From assembly GCF_001698205.1 (NCBI RefSeq), contig NZ_CP016591.1:2170001-2234000 (forward strand): DNA of 64,000 bases, written 5' to 3'. The stretch is from Tsuneonella dongtanensis. GTDB lineage: Bacteria; Pseudomonadota; Alphaproteobacteria; Sphingomonadales; Sphingomonadaceae. The notes beneath the pieces are model-generated. The model ran no database searches, had not been told where the DNA came from, and worked only from the letters and a program-made list of their open reading frames with translations. The translations under genes were made by a program, and so were the position numbers. Positions 58,593-63,999 of the stretch are shown one piece after another. The stretch's first letter is position 1. Each line of letters starts with the position of its first letter.

Positions 58593-59879
58593 ATGGCGGA
58601 CAAATCGGCGACGCTGACCTACGACAACAAGACCATCGAGCTTCCGGTGCTCGAAGGAAGTGTCGGACCGGAAGTCATCGACATCCGGAAACTCTATGGC
58701 CAGACCGGTGCCTTTACCTACGATCCGGGCTACAAGTCGACCGGAAGCTGCGAAAGCGCGCTGACCTACATCGACGGCGATGAGGGCATCCTGCTCCACC
58801 GTGGCTATCCGATCGGCCAGCTGGCCGAACAGTCGAACTTCATGGAAGTGAGCTATCTCCTCCTCAACGGCGAACTGCCGTCGAAGACCGAGCTCGACGA
58901 TTTCAGCTACACGATCAGCCGCCACACAATGCTGCACGAGCAGCTGTCGACGTTCTACCGCGGTTTCCGGCGCGACGCCCACCCGATGGCGATCATGTGC
59001 GGCGTGGTCGGCGCATTGAGCGCATTCTACCACGACAGCACCGACATTTCGGACCCCGAGCAGCGCAAGATCGCCAGCCACCGGCTGATCGCGAAGATGC
59101 CGACGATCGCCGCGATGGCGTACAAGTATTCGGTCGGTCAGCCGTTCCTCTATCCCGACAACTCGTTAAGCTACACGGGCAATTTCCTGCGCATGACCTT
59201 CGGCGTGCCGGCGGAGCAGTATGAAGTCGTCCCGGCGGTCGAGAAAGCGATGGACCGCATCTTCATTCTCCACGCCGACCACGAGCAGAACGCGTCGACC
59301 TCGACCGTACGGCTCGCCGGATCGTCGGGCGCCAACCCCTTCGCTTGCATCGCGGCCGGTATTGCCTGCCTGTGGGGTCCCGCGCACGGCAGTGCGAACG
59401 AAGCGGCGCTGAACATGCTTCGCGAAATCGGCACGCCCGACAAGATTCCGCACTACATCGAGCGCGCGAAGGACAAGAACGATCCCTTCCGCCTGATGGG
59501 CTTCGGTCACCGCGTCTACAAGAACTACGATCCGCGCGCGACGGTCATGCAGAAGACCGTTCGCGAAGTGTTCGACGCGCTGAAAGTAAACGATCCGCTG
59601 TTCGAGACGGCCCTGCGGCTCGAGGAAATGGCGCTCAGCGACGACTACTTCAAAGAGAAGAAGCTGTTTCCCAACGTCGATTTCTACTCGGGTGTCATCC
59701 TCTCGGCGATCGGATTCCCGACGACGATGTTCACTGCCCTGTTCGCGCTCGCCCGCACGGTCGGCTGGGTCGCCCAGTGGAACGAGATGATCTCCGATCC
59801 CGGCCAAGTCATCGGTCGCCCTCGCCAGCTCTACACCGGGCCGACCGCGCGCGACTACGTGCCGGTCGAAAAGCGCTAG
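58593..59879 (+). CDS. gltA: Citrate synthase
   Basis: 428 residues, hexameric type II form of Gram-negative bacteria. Active-site His in [18 protein letters not shown], second His in [15 protein letters not shown], and Asp within [16 protein letters not shown]. Closing block [18 protein letters not shown]. Preceded by AGGAG seven bases from the ATG. It uses acetyl-CoA supplied by PdhAB. Followed after three bases by a small membrane gene. Confidence 0.98.
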
Positions 59880-60094: not shown

Positions 60095-61465
60095 TCAGTC
60101 CGCGGCGGGCAGGTCGAGCGTAAATCGCGCGCCTTCGCCTGGCGTACTCTCTACGGTCAGATCGCCATGCATCGCTCGCGCTAGCTTGCGCGAGATATAA
60201 AGGCCCAGGCCCGAGCCGCCGTCTCCCCCGCGTCCCAGACGCTCGAATTTGTCGAACACGCTGGAGAGCTTGTCGGCGGGGATTCCGGGACCTTCATCGC
60301 GCACCACCGCCCGCGCCCGGTCGCCCTCGCGAGCAACCTCGATATGCACGGTCGTGCCGCCGGGAGAATAGGCGATCGCGTTGCCGATCAGGTTGAGAAG
60401 TACCTGCAGAACACGGCGGAACTCGCCTGTCGCGGGAACCGAGATCCCGTCGTCTGGCGCGACAAGCGTGGTCCCTCGCTCGCGTGCGCGTACGCCAAGG
60501 ATACCGACAGCACGGCGTGCGACGTCGGCAAGGTCGATTCGGTCGGGAGCCGTGCGAAAGTCGTCGGCCTCGACAATCTCGAGGTCCGACAGATCGTCGA
60601 TCAGCGAAAGCAGGTGCTGGCCGGCAGCCGCGATGTCAGCAGCGTAGCTGCTGTATTCTTCGGCGAGCGGCCCCGCGAGGCGCGAGCGGATCGTCTCGGC
60701 GTTAGCGATGATCCGCGCGATCGGCTGGCGCAACACGGGTGTCAATTCCCGCCCGAACGATGGAGTGGCGCGCGAGGGCTCCTCGGAAGCCAAAATTGCT
60801 GCGGGCAACGGCGCATCCGCCACCAGCAGGAGTTCGAAACCCGCGCTGCCGGGATCGGGACGCCCCAGCGGCACCAGCGTTACCGTCCAGCCGCGTTTAG
60901 AGCCCGGGATGACGCAGCGCGTCCCGTCGAGCAGCCGCCAATGGAGCGGCGGACGATGCGCGAGCTCGGGCAATTCAACGAACTCGGTCCAGGGCTTCCC
61001 CGGGTTCTCCCGCATCGCGCGGGCGAGGCCGGCCAGGTCCGATGCAGACGTGTCGAAGGCCAGGACACCCTGGTCTGGCGCAAGCCGCGCGGTAAGCTCG
61101 GCAACAGCGCGGTCGATCGCGATCCTGAGGGCCGATGCCTCGTCTTCCGAAGGCGCGGGACGCGGGCTGGTCGACCAGGCTCCCACCGCGATCGAGCAAC
61201 CCCCGGCTTCACCCTCGCTTTCGGGCTCGATCTCGACCCATGCACGGACGGTGTCTTCTCCGTCGAGCGCCTCGATCGTGCGCGCCAGCCTAAGCCCCAG
61301 CCGACGCGACTTGCGGACGAGTTCGAGCAAGGCGGGCACCGCCACCGTGCCGGGCAATTCTCCGCCGCAACGGCGGTGAAGTCCTGCCAAAGGCTCGTCG
61401 GCTTCGATCAGCCTGTCGGCCGCATCGGTGCGTGCACGAGCAAGGACGACACCCTGGGAGGCCAT
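60095..61465 (-). CDS. Histidine-kinase-like protein lacking the phospho-acceptor His
   Basis: 456 residues, soluble. About 60-220 is a divergent sensory region. The dimerisation helix aligns with HisKA as FGRELTPVLRQPIARIIANA, where the usual SHELRTPL reads TPVLRQPI, so the acceptor His is Pro243. The second helix (HLLSLIDDLSDLEIVEA) is kept. The ATPase core looks intact: LLNLIGNAIAYSPGG, DEGPGIPADKLSSVFDKFER and GGSGLGLYISRKLA. ATG 61465 follows one base after the preceding gene. It may be a pseudokinase scaffold or trans-acting partner. Confidence 0.88.
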   Translation of the reverse strand: MASQGVVLARARTDAADRLIEADEPLAGLHRRCGGELPGTVAVPALLELVRKSRRLGLRLARTIEALDGEDTVRAWVEIEPESEGEAGGCSIAVGAWSTSPRPAPSEDEASALRIAIDRAVAELTARLAPDQGVLAFDTSASDLAGLARAMRENPGKPWTEFVELPELAHRPPLHWRLLDGTRCVIPGSKRGWTVTLVPLGRPDPGSAGFELLLVADAPLPAAILASEEPSRATPSFGRELTPVLRQPIARIIANAETIRSRLAGPLAEEYSSYAADIAAAGQHLLSLIDDLSDLEIVEADDFRTAPDRIDLADVARRAVGILGVRARERGTTLVAPDDGISVPATGEFRRVLQVLLNLIGNAIAYSPGGTTVHIEVAREGDRARAVVRDEGPGIPADKLSSVFDKFERLGRGGDGGSGLGLYISRKLARAMHGDLTVESTPGEGARFTLDLPAAD

Positions 61466-61466
61466 G

Positions 61467-62429
61467 TCAGGCCACCGAGCTCCGCCCGGACGCGCCGAGC
61501 ATGGCGGCAGCCCGGTCGGCGCGAAGCAGATCGAACCCCTCGGGCAGCGATACGTCTGGATGCAGGTGCAGGAACTGTTCCTCGACTTCGCGAGGCTTGA
61601 GCCCGGCGGCGCGCAGCGAAAGCGCCAGGCGCGCAAGTTGCTTGTCGTTTGTCGCGACGACCGCGAGGTCCCTGTCGAAGCGGGACGACGAAGCGATGGC
61701 GCTGAGAAACAGCGCAACGCCGGAATGGCCTACGGAAAGTGCGGCCCGGGCCCCCGGCCCCATTCCGGTGACGAGGCGCGACAACAGGCCGATCCGGCTT
61801 GCGCTTTCGCTGTAATCGCGGCGGAAGGATTGGACCGCGCGCTCCACGCTCGCTCGCTCCCCCTCGTCCGCCAGCTGGATCCACTTCGCGAGGACGGCAT
61901 CGAACAGGTCGGCCGGCAGCTCGCCGATCGGAAGCTCCATACGGCGCTGGCTCTGGACGAAACGGGCCTGCGCAGCCAGCGCCGCCATCGCGGTCGCGGC
62001 GGTCGCTCCGTCTTCGGATGCGATCAAGGCCTGCAGAAGCGGGGAAAGAACCGGGTCGATCGCCGAGCGCTTTTCCAGACGCGCGGAAAGCTGCGACTCC
62101 ATCGCGAGCGCGTGACAGTGCGAGACCAGCCGCGCATCGGTAAGCAGGGATTGCGTCAGGCCTTCGCATTGGCGCTCGGCAACGCCGTGCGGATCGGGCG
62201 AGGTGTCCTGCTCGGCCTTCGCGACGAGCAGCTGGCGCGCCACATCCCACACCATTCCGCGCACGCGGCTGACAATCTCGTCGCTGAACAGCGAATGGTC
62301 GTGATTGGCGAGCAAATGGCCCAGTACAGGCCCAATCGTGCCGATCACGACGTCCCCATGCGCCAGCTCATCGCGCAGGACCGCTTCTACGGGCGCTTCG
62401 CTCGACTGCATCATCACTGCTTCACTCAT
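61467..62429 (-). CDS. Helical protein of unknown function, kinase-linked
   Basis: 320 residues, Ala/Leu-rich and probably all-helical, with no transmembrane segment, signal peptide or Cys-rich motif. Characteristic stretches: VVIGTIGPVLGHLLANHDHS, VRGMVWDVARQLLVAKAEQD, ALMESQ-like HCHALAMESQLSARLE, and DRDLAVVATNDKQLARLALS. It may be a DUF2336-type protein, an alphaproteobacterial family often near two-component genes, but I could not confirm this. Starts MSEAVMMQ and ends one base before the kinase-like gene, so they are surely co-transcribed. Confidence 0.75.
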   Translation of the reverse strand: MSEAVMMQSSEAPVEAVLRDELAHGDVVIGTIGPVLGHLLANHDHSLFSDEIVSRVRGMVWDVARQLLVAKAEQDTSPDPHGVAERQCEGLTQSLLTDARLVSHCHALAMESQLSARLEKRSAIDPVLSPLLQALIASEDGATAATAMAALAAQARFVQSQRRMELPIGELPADLFDAVLAKWIQLADEGERASVERAVQSFRRDYSESASRIGLLSRLVTGMGPGARAALSVGHSGVALFLSAIASSSRFDRDLAVVATNDKQLARLALSLRAAGLKPREVEEQFLHLHPDVSLPEGFDLLRADRAAAMLGASGRSSVA

Positions 62430-62463
62430 GAACCGGCCATAGCGGGCCGTGGTTAAACCTGCG

Positions 62464-63630
62464 TTAGCTTCGTGGGCGGGGCCAGAAAATACGTGCCGCT
62501 AGCGCTGCAAGGCCTACCGCGGCCATCGCAGGCACGAACCCCTGGCCCACTGCCGCCAGGAAAAGTACTGAAAAGACGAGGATACGATCGCCCAGCGGCC
62601 GGATGGGCTTTTGCGCGCCCTCCTCGCGAGCCAGCCTGATGGCTCCGACAAGGACAAGGGCCACGAACGGCGCATGCCATCCGGCAAATTCCTGCGGACT
62701 GGCGGCGACGGCGACGAGAGACAGGTCGAGCGCGGCATCACGCAGTTCGATGTATCGCCGGCGCGGCTCTTTGCCCGCGCCTGCCCGCGCAAACCGCCCC
62801 AGCCGTTCGCCCACCTCGCTCGCCAGCGTTCCAAAGGCCAGCGCGGCCAGGCCGCCGACCGTCATGCCGAGATATCCGGCGATCCCGCCCGCAACGGCAA
62901 GGGTCGCTCCGCCAATGGCAATGGACGGCGCCACCGCGGGTCGATCGGCTGTTCGAGGGAGAACGGACCGGGCCAGAAAGTGCGCGAGCATCTCGCCCGG
63001 GCGGTCGATCGCGGGGGTTGGGACATGGCGGGATTGCCAGGCCATTTCCATTCTCTGCGCCGCGCCGCTGTCTCCCAGAAGTGCCCACCGCCCCTCGTCG
63101 AGCCAGCGCTCGGGCACCTCTACACAGCGCCCTCCGCGCTGGAGCGCAATGCGCAACAGGCCCGCAATGGGATCGGCGTCAGGCGGTAACAGGGTCAGCG
63201 CCTCGACAGCATCGCCACGCGTCGCCAGCACTCCGCCCCAGGCACGGTCGCGGTCGATCCGTTCGAAACCGCGTTCGACCGCGCCTTCGGCCGGGAGCGA
63301 CGCAATCCCCGCCCTCGCCCCGAGCGCCTGGTTGAGCCATTCCCTGTCGGGCAGGATGCCGGGCGCAAAAACGAACAGGGTGTCGGCTGCACTGATCAGA
63401 CCAGACAAAGCACGGGCGTGGGAAACGGCGCTGAACCGCGCATCCCTGCCCTCGGCTTCGCGCTGAAGGGCTCCCAGGGTCGCTCCGGGACCTTCGGCGA
63501 GGCACACGATCCGTTCGCAGCCTAGCGCAAGCGCCGCCTGCAACTGGTGCCATGCGATCGGCCGACCGCCAAGCTTGACGGGTTCCCCGCCCTCATCCGT
63601 GATTGCCATCAGCGCGACCCGCACGCGCAC
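62464..63630 (-). CDS. Membrane protein with nucleotidyltransferase-like N-terminus
   Basis: 388 residues. The first 200 (RVALMAITDEGGEPVKLGGR, WHQLQAALALGCERIVCLAE, TLFVFAPGILPDREWLNQAL) resemble the GT-A fold of nucleotidyltransferases, but the usual G-x-G-T/S-R loop is not seen. From about 225 on there are several hydrophobic helices (IAIGGATLAVAGGIAGYLGM, ILVFSVLFLAAVGQGFVPAM). This two-part plan recalls fused IPC-transferase/CDP-alcohol phosphotransferases, yet the DG-x2-AR motif is absent. Function unknown. 34 bp upstream of the helical protein, likely the same transcript. Confidence 0.72.
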   Translation of the reverse strand: MRVRVALMAITDEGGEPVKLGGRPIAWHQLQAALALGCERIVCLAEGPGATLGALQREAEGRDARFSAVSHARALSGLISAADTLFVFAPGILPDREWLNQALGARAGIASLPAEGAVERGFERIDRDRAWGGVLATRGDAVEALTLLPPDADPIAGLLRIALQRGGRCVEVPERWLDEGRWALLGDSGAAQRMEMAWQSRHVPTPAIDRPGEMLAHFLARSVLPRTADRPAVAPSIAIGGATLAVAGGIAGYLGMTVGGLAALAFGTLASEVGERLGRFARAGAGKEPRRRYIELRDAALDLSLVAVAASPQEFAGWHAPFVALVLVGAIRLAREEGAQKPIRPLGDRILVFSVLFLAAVGQGFVPAMAAVGLAALAARIFWPRPRS

Positions 63631-63696
63631 ACTCCCCGCCAGACGTTGAGCGCGGCAGACTAGGGAGCCGGTATCGGGTTGACTAGGGGGCCGGGG

Positions 63697-63999
63697 TCAG
63701 CCCCCGACGAAGCGTTCGCGGAACAGTTCGATCCGCCGCACGACCGACGGATCGCCGGGTGCGCCGTCCGCCGCTTCGTCGGCAAGATGGATCAGTTCGT
63801 CGGCATGGAAGCTGGCGGCCAGCCCCTTGAGGCGCTGGGCAGCGACAGTCCAGTTGCCGTCGCAGCGGGCGCGCTTCAGCAAGTCCAGCTGGCGATCGAG
63901 GCTTTCGCGAAAGGCGTCGCGCAGCTCGCGCAGAAGCGCCGGATCCTCCCCGGCAGCCGCGGCTATCGTCGCGTCAAAGGCACCATTCTCGTAAGCCAT
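63697..63999 (-). CDS. Hpt-like phosphotransfer protein lacking the acceptor His
   Basis: 100 residues, all helical. LLRELRDAFRESLDRQLDLL and NWTVAAQRLKGLAASFHADE align with the Hpt four-helix bundle, where the usual AHxLKG motif reads AQRLKG: the phosphorylated His is Gln55. The rest of the fold is preserved (ELIHLADEAADG). It is first in line of the four-gene set that ends with the His-less kinase-like gene. The ATG is two bases from the window end; longer starts cannot be excluded. Confidence 0.82.
   Translation of the reverse strand: MAYENGAFDATIAAAAGEDPALLRELRDAFRESLDRQLDLLKRARCDGNWTVAAQRLKGLAASFHADELIHLADEAADGAPGDPSVVRRIELFRERFVGG

Follow-up and report, generated by a model that had tools for sequence, protein, structure and literature searches.

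A kinase-like and an Hpt-like protein that both lack the phospho-accepting histidine share one operon in Tsuneonella dongtanensis and related genera

What can an operon do when it encodes both a kinase-like protein and an Hpt-like protein, neither of which holds the phospho-accepting histidine? The question is raised by a four-gene operon located at the end of the stretch of T. dongtanensis DNA analysed here (the window; 64,000 nucleotides, positions 2170001-2234000 of a single-contig genome). The operon is carried by the minus strand and runs from the Hpt-like gene through NT and HEL to HK, with intergenic gaps of 66, 34, and 1 base. All four open reading frames reported in a first-pass annotation of the window were present, as were the two substitutions that it had singled out, Pro243 in HK and Gln55 in Hpt. 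The features of the locus are as follows.

58593..59879, plus strand: citrate synthase, convergent with HK and outside the operon, marking the locus in other genomes
60095..61465, minus strand: HK, kinase-like protein of 456 aa with a degenerate HisKA domain (Pro243, and Val244 at the Glu site) and a complete HATPase_c domain
60737..60739, minus strand: Pro243 codon, where HK has lost its phospho-His
61467..62429, minus strand: HEL, predicted all-helical protein of 320 aa, distant relative of DUF2336
62464..63630, minus strand: NT, protein of 388 aa with a nucleotidyltransferase-like domain and a membrane domain of predicted CDP-alcohol phosphotransferase fold, in which the catalytic motifs were not found
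63697..63999, minus strand: Hpt-like protein of 100 aa with Gln55 at the phospho-His position
63835..63837, minus strand: Gln55 codon, where Hpt has lost its phospho-His
L002:6071-8701, past the end of the window, divergent: CC, protein of 876 aa; it has two membrane-like segments at the N terminus, and its long body is coiled-coil-like

Counting from the HK start at 61465, Pro243 lies in the context RELTPVLRQ; Gln55 of Hpt lies in TVAAQRLKG. The start codon of Hpt occupies the final three bases of the listed frame (63997-63999), and the gene is therefore whole. The HisKA domain of HK was matched by Pfam at 30.2 bits (cut-off 26.9) and HATPase_c at 97.8 bits; the window Hpt scored 18.2 bits, below the cut-off of 24.6. 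An error of frame or start was rejected, since relatives keep the frames open and dN/dS values lie below 1. Three of the four operon proteins are missing catalytic residues of their families, and no receiver domain was found in the operon with Pfam.

To what extent is the loss shared? A protein search for HK in 119 genomes of the family (E<=1e-30) was positive in 95, including the window's own, and the loci of the other 94 were fetched for residue reading. The phospho-His was absent in 87 of the 95 loci. Among the eight loci with H at the column, L116 and L117, from one genus, lack the following acid; the others are L120, L121, L122, L123, L125, and L126. Citrate synthase was present in the fetched stretches of L121 and L122, directly adjoining the His-bearing HK in the latter, and absent from those of L120, L123, L125, and L126. 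In 12 sister-family loci, selected from a longer match list, the motif was kept throughout (SHELRTPL, with one SHELKTPL). In the named set, comprising the best 80 of 440 relatives and overlapping the family sample, Pro was present at the site in 80 of 80 HKs; the closest named relatives of the window HK are from Tsuneonella species.

A different arrangement was observed in L126, which contains a DUF2336-like frame and a His-bearing HK, and a similar pair is present in L120. The genes adjoining the HKs of L126 and L123 are presumably flagellar and hook-associated (flgK/flgL). The L126, L120, and L123 arrangement is likely to be an active paralogue of the module.

The HKs without the canonical motif were assembled in a set of 97 rows (the 87 loci, L116, L117, and 8 further family loci) and compared with a His set of 24 rows, in which one gene is counted twice (L121 and L255). 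Of the 97, 95 lack the His and all lack the following acid, the window HK having P243-V244 at these positions. The residues at the site were P (55), R (10), A (8), Q (5), E (4), D (4), K (3), G (2), H (2), and N, V, S, and T (1 each), with no Tyr. The ATP site, which the annotation had described as intact, is so across the whole set, every checked residue being kept in at least 96 of the 97 rows, with an aromatic residue at the second F-box position. In the N box, the two Asn residues are present in 96 (N1) and 97 (N2) rows. The G1 box is kept in 97, 97, and 96 rows (G1 Asp in 97) and the G2 box in 96, 97, and 97, its last two Gly residues being present in 97. The first Phe of the F box is invariant, and the second position is occupied by Phe (89), Tyr (5), or Trp (2). 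A new Arg is present at +8 in 90 of the 97 non-canonical HKs versus 0 of the 24 rows of the His set, and the Thr found at +4 in 24/24 rows of the His set is replaced by Gln in 39 of the 46 near HKs (50 of 97 overall). The residue that follows GLGL in the G2 box is His in 23 of the 24 His-set rows versus Tyr in 84 of the 97 His-less rows; this swap is a second change that tracks the loss of the phospho-His. Pairwise dN/dS values, obtained for eight pairs of His-less HKs with an in-house NG86 script, ranged from 0.045 to 0.214, and are rough since dS was often near or above 1.

Displacement of the acceptor to another histidine was inspected at every model column, His being the only residue considered. 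No other His specific to the His-less HKs was found: H284 is shared, with frequencies of 0.99 and 0.96 in the His-less and His sets, respectively, and two further His columns reach 0.32 and 0.45 at most. An alternative acceptor His in HK was rejected, as no column was both specific and common. For Hpt, an alternative acceptor was likewise rejected, His being present at column 65 at a frequency of 0.52, with Gly in most others. The other acceptor His that the annotation had named as a refutation did not emerge in either protein.

The loci yielded 65 Hpts, 43 of which were aligned and built into a profile. This profile detected Hpts in 74 of the 119 family genomes (E<=1e-12), of which 73 were read, the Hpt of G117 (a genome with no HK at 1e-30) being left unread together with 7 weak matches among order genomes. 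The phospho-His was absent in 71 of the 73 family Hpts, the site holding 13 residue types, and was present in L210 and L109. In the named set, 63 of the 64 Hpts found lack the His, the exception being L312. L109 and L312 are lone His-bearing Hpts located beside His-less HKs, as a result of reversion, retention, or chance. With the same profile, 118 genomes of the order gave 24 strong matches, all in the same family, and 289 genomes of the class gave 4 strong matches in the family and 2 weak matches outside, which have the His. The Hpt model was matched at E<=0.01 by 11 of the 43 aligned rows, and a sequence comparison with solved structures gave only chance-like matches and no solved Hpt. For five Hpt pairs, dN/dS was 0.004-0.183 (rough values, with dS often near or above 1).

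Within the same genomes, both proteins lack the His in 71 of 73 cases and both have it in G085, G034 being mixed. The Hpt is located on the same strand as HK and within 3.3 kb of it in 65 of 73 family genomes; seven Hpts are sited away from HK, all still without the His. A His-less HK is accompanied by an Hpt in 72 family genomes. In 15 others the His-less HK is kept with no Hpt found, indicating that Hpt is not needed for HK.

The four-gene order recurs across genera, supporting the synteny that the annotation had proposed to check. Full flanks surrounded 59 of the named loci; among these, HEL was present in 59, NT in 56, Hpt in 46, CC in 59, and citrate synthase in 58. In the 87 His-less family loci, tblastn with the window proteins detected citrate synthase in 77, HEL in 52, NT in 63, Hpt in 65, CC in 77, and all four operon genes together in 42, these counts being lower bounds because HEL and NT diverge fast. 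CC, which begins 70 bases beyond the Hpt start, gave only Pfam and NCBIfam matches far below the cut-offs, and its architecture may resemble that of a polarity scaffold. A relationship of CC to TipN was considered in view of the two membrane-like segments and set aside, passages of PMC10127582 containing nothing on the build of TipN. Citrate synthase has a cell-cycle role in Caulobacter (PMC7083601); here it is a neighbour only.

For the two remaining operon proteins, the sequences aligned were 63 HELs and 59 NTs, all of normal length. Both proteins diverge faster than HK in most pairs. The predicted fold of NT (mean pLDDT 94.3) resembles, to a moderate extent, those of nucleotidyltransferases and of CDP-alcohol phosphotransferases such as AF2299 and PIPS, with a best E of 6.6e-6 and a TM of about 0.5. 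The plain motif patterns tried, including DGxxAR(x8)GxxxDxxxD of the CDP-alcohol phosphotransferases, were matched by none of the 59 NT rows. The model thus depicts NT as a decayed nucleotidyltransferase joined to a CDP-alcohol phosphotransferase fold. HEL is predicted to be all-helical (pLDDT 93.0), with no similar fold among solved structures. The window HEL gave no match to DUF2336 (PF10098), for which membership was judged by the gathering score; 17 of the 63 aligned HELs matched the model at E<=0.01, and comparison of the two profiles aligned 191 columns with a probability of 89.8 (E 1.8e-6). By these profile scores, HEL is a distant relative of DUF2336 and not a member.

Was the histidine ever there? 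In genus g85, the His is present in 6/6 HKs and in 5/5 of the Hpts found. The full locus was obtained from one genome of this genus, G085 (locus L210), in which HK has the motif SHELRTPL and Hpt the motif AAAHRLKG, the two proteins sitting between the same flanks as in the His-less loci. The locus contains citrate synthase, a short membrane-like frame, the His-bearing HK, a DUF2336 gene, a Wzi-like gene, a nucleotidyltransferase gene with GFGSR, an inositol-phosphate synthase gene, NT, and Hpt, followed by frames that we take to be RNase J and coaX. The G085 proteins exceed the Pfam cut-offs for HisKA (63.7 bits), Hpt (36.6), DUF2336 (178.6), and CDP-OH_P_transf (36.3; cut-off 22), and NT retains DGxxAR and the Gly of the motif, though not both later Asp residues. 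In G530, G531, and G533, HK and Hpt are on one contig, some 7-8 kb apart. The double-His state is thus known from a single genus. The Wzi, NTP transferase, and inositol-phosphate synthase genes lie at L210:4690-7997, and this gene content suggests that the locus may have originated in inositol-lipid or capsule functions.

The order of events was deduced from two trees. A tree of 63 HK rows was calculated with IQ-TREE after masking of the His and of the next column. Of the 80 HKs listed, 39 were taken into A4. The His-less HKs formed a supported clade (98.7/100), inside which L116 and L117 were nested and outside which branched g85 (89.6/98) and then L122 (93.6/100), the locus of G012, which keeps the HK His and in which no Hpt was found. 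An earlier tree of 115 rows contained the same His-less clade and grouped L121 with the outgroups instead. In a species tree based on citrate synthase and RNase J from 24 genomes, the first split separated a group of g85, G012, and G072 (93.4/85) from a branch comprising the 12 His-less genomes included (99.8/88). Since the His-keepers are placed in this way in both trees, the loss in HK maps to the stem of the larger branch. The Hpt loss falls on or after that stem; no Hpt was found in the early lines of this branch.

These results indicate that the losses are older than the annotation had assumed. It had named His-bearing orthologues as a refutation, since they would point to a recent mutation in the window. 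Alignment at both sites revealed old and shared losses (87/95 HKs and 71/73 Hpts), and the double-His orthologues that do exist, in g85, mark the ancestral state and not a recent mutation, since the first split of the family separates this genus from the branch that includes the window. The trees are also better explained by a single ancient change of the locus than by two recent losses that occurred separately, in disagreement with the two independent losses that had been proposed. Together, the double-His state of g85, the domain matches of G085, and the position of the His-keepers outside the supported His-less clade indicate that a phosphorelay beside inositol-phosphate genes likely became a set of pseudo-enzymes under purifying selection. 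The acceptor is generally missing in only 0.9% of HisKA domains (722 of 76,471) and 0.9% of Hpts (90 of 10,312), according to PMC12632262 (section 6). A double loss, side by side and kept across the family, is therefore more than chance.

Pseudo-kinases and pseudo-Hpts are known singly. No description of such a pair in one operon, nor of DUF2336, was found in searches of the open literature. For the Hpt half, the plant protein AHP6 is reportedly a pseudo-Hpt that lacks the His and blocks a phosphorelay. It resembles the window Hpt in the missing His, and differs in being of plant origin, in reportedly carrying one substitution, to Asn, and in not being known to share a gene set with a pseudo-kinase. 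For the kinase half, DivL of Caulobacter serves as the precedent. In PMC4211667, DivL is described as a pseudo-histidine kinase that binds DivK~P and has neither kinase nor phosphatase activity, and, like the window HK, it combines HisKA and HATPase_c without the phospho-His and is conserved in alphaproteobacteria. The site of DivL is occupied by Tyr (Ala in one species), whereas here it is occupied by Pro or by various other residues, Tyr not being among them; DivL also has several PAS domains and binds ATP weakly (PMC4211667). No PAS match was found in the window HK, and those of its G085 orthologue were weak and below the cut-off. The solved DivL structure was among the matches of the HK profile (E 6.5e-33) without being the best, and, unlike DivL, the HK analyzed here has a pseudo-Hpt in its operon. 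A further related arrangement is that of HmrA-HmrB-HmrC-HmrX in Caulobacter, a signalling set in which the Hpt-like HmrB lacks the usual HxxKG and its gene adjoins those of a kinase and of a membrane protein (PMC11481889). It differs from the present operon in that the kinase is a hybrid kinase, which the authors place in a phosphorelay, and in that rescue was abolished when candidate His residues of HmrB were replaced (PMC11481889).

We consider, with a probability of about 0.5, that the operon once specified a phosphorelay module and now specifies a signalling complex that is non-catalytic. Since the losses are old and shared and the ATP site is intact, the natural reading is that of work through binding and ATP, and the set probably now acts by binding and not by passing phosphate. 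HK would bind ATP and change shape with it. With their helical surfaces retained, HK and Hpt would attach to receiver domains or to each other and pass no phosphate, in the manner of DivL with DivK~P. HEL may regulate HK or couple it, and NT may anchor the complex at the membrane. As a whole, the complex would respond to ATP, be anchored at the membrane, and act by binding, either reading or blocking receiver domains. The 15 genomes that have a His-less HK and no Hpt found count against this explanation, as do the His-bearing Hpts of L109 and L312 and the H in the HK column of L116 and L117. It is further weakened by the operon having yielded no receiver, by the derivation of the double-His state from one genus and of the full locus from one genome, by the joint detection of the four genes in only 42 of 87 His-less loci, and by the moderate level of the NT fold matches.

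Part of the data may be read in terms of residual catalysis. HK might be a phosphatase-only or decoy partner of one receiver: autophosphorylation would be lost, but HK would still dephosphorylate a response regulator, or hold it, using the Gln at +4, with Hpt as a separate decoy. The contrast between this Gln in 39 of 46 near HKs and Thr in 24/24 rows of the His set fits such a role, but the Gln extends to only 50 of the 97 rows of the whole set, the acid at +1, which belongs to the HisKA phosphatase motif, is gone in all 97, and no receiver was found in the operon. The His contributes to the phosphatase activity of HisKA kinases without being essential for it (PMC12632262), which speaks for the phosphatase role; on balance, we regard this role as unlikely. 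HK could also be an atypical kinase transferring phosphate from ATP to another residue or protein, with Hpt not being a partner. Conservation of the ATP-site residues, including the second Asn of the N box in 97/97 rows, is stronger than a pure scaffold seems to need. However, inspection of the His columns revealed none conserved in the His-less set alone, H284 being shared with the His-bearing set, and the adjacent acid is lost throughout, making an atypical kinase decidedly improbable.

Two other explanations dispense with a joint function. If each protein were a pseudo-enzyme with its own job, the shared operon reflecting only an inherited gene order, Hpts away from HK (seven genomes of the family sample) and HKs with no Hpt found (15 genomes) would be expected. 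The proximity of Hpt to HK, in the same orientation, in 65 of the 73 genomes with a read Hpt and the matching of the two sites (both without His in 71/73, both with His in G085, G034 mixed) render separate jobs very unlikely. Slow decay, in which the genes lose their functions in turn and are retained through linkage to essential neighbours, would account for the absence of a detectable Hpt in these 15 genomes, for the faster divergence of NT and HEL than of HK in most pairs, and for the disappearance of the NT catalytic motifs. It is hardly compatible with frames that are open across genera, though a few matches carry an internal stop, with dN/dS values well below 1 and conserved ATP residues, and with the maintenance in seven genomes of Hpts that have moved off the locus; we consider decay highly improbable.

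Returning to the non-catalytic complex, a bolder version of this explanation can be put forward tentatively. A phosphorelay and a membrane lipid enzyme might have been converted as a unit into an ATP-gated, phosphate-free relay made entirely of pseudo-enzymes, in which the pseudo-kinase and the pseudo-Hpt would meet at the membrane by binding to one another or to a common receiver, and which would be conserved over much of the Sphingomonadaceae and Erythrobacter lineage. The operon offers a lead to DUF2336. It also provides a before-and-after pair, one genus with both histidines versus a large clade nearly all without them, which makes it possible to test what role a phosphorelay may retain after the loss of phosphate transfer and what purpose ATP binding serves in such a kinase.
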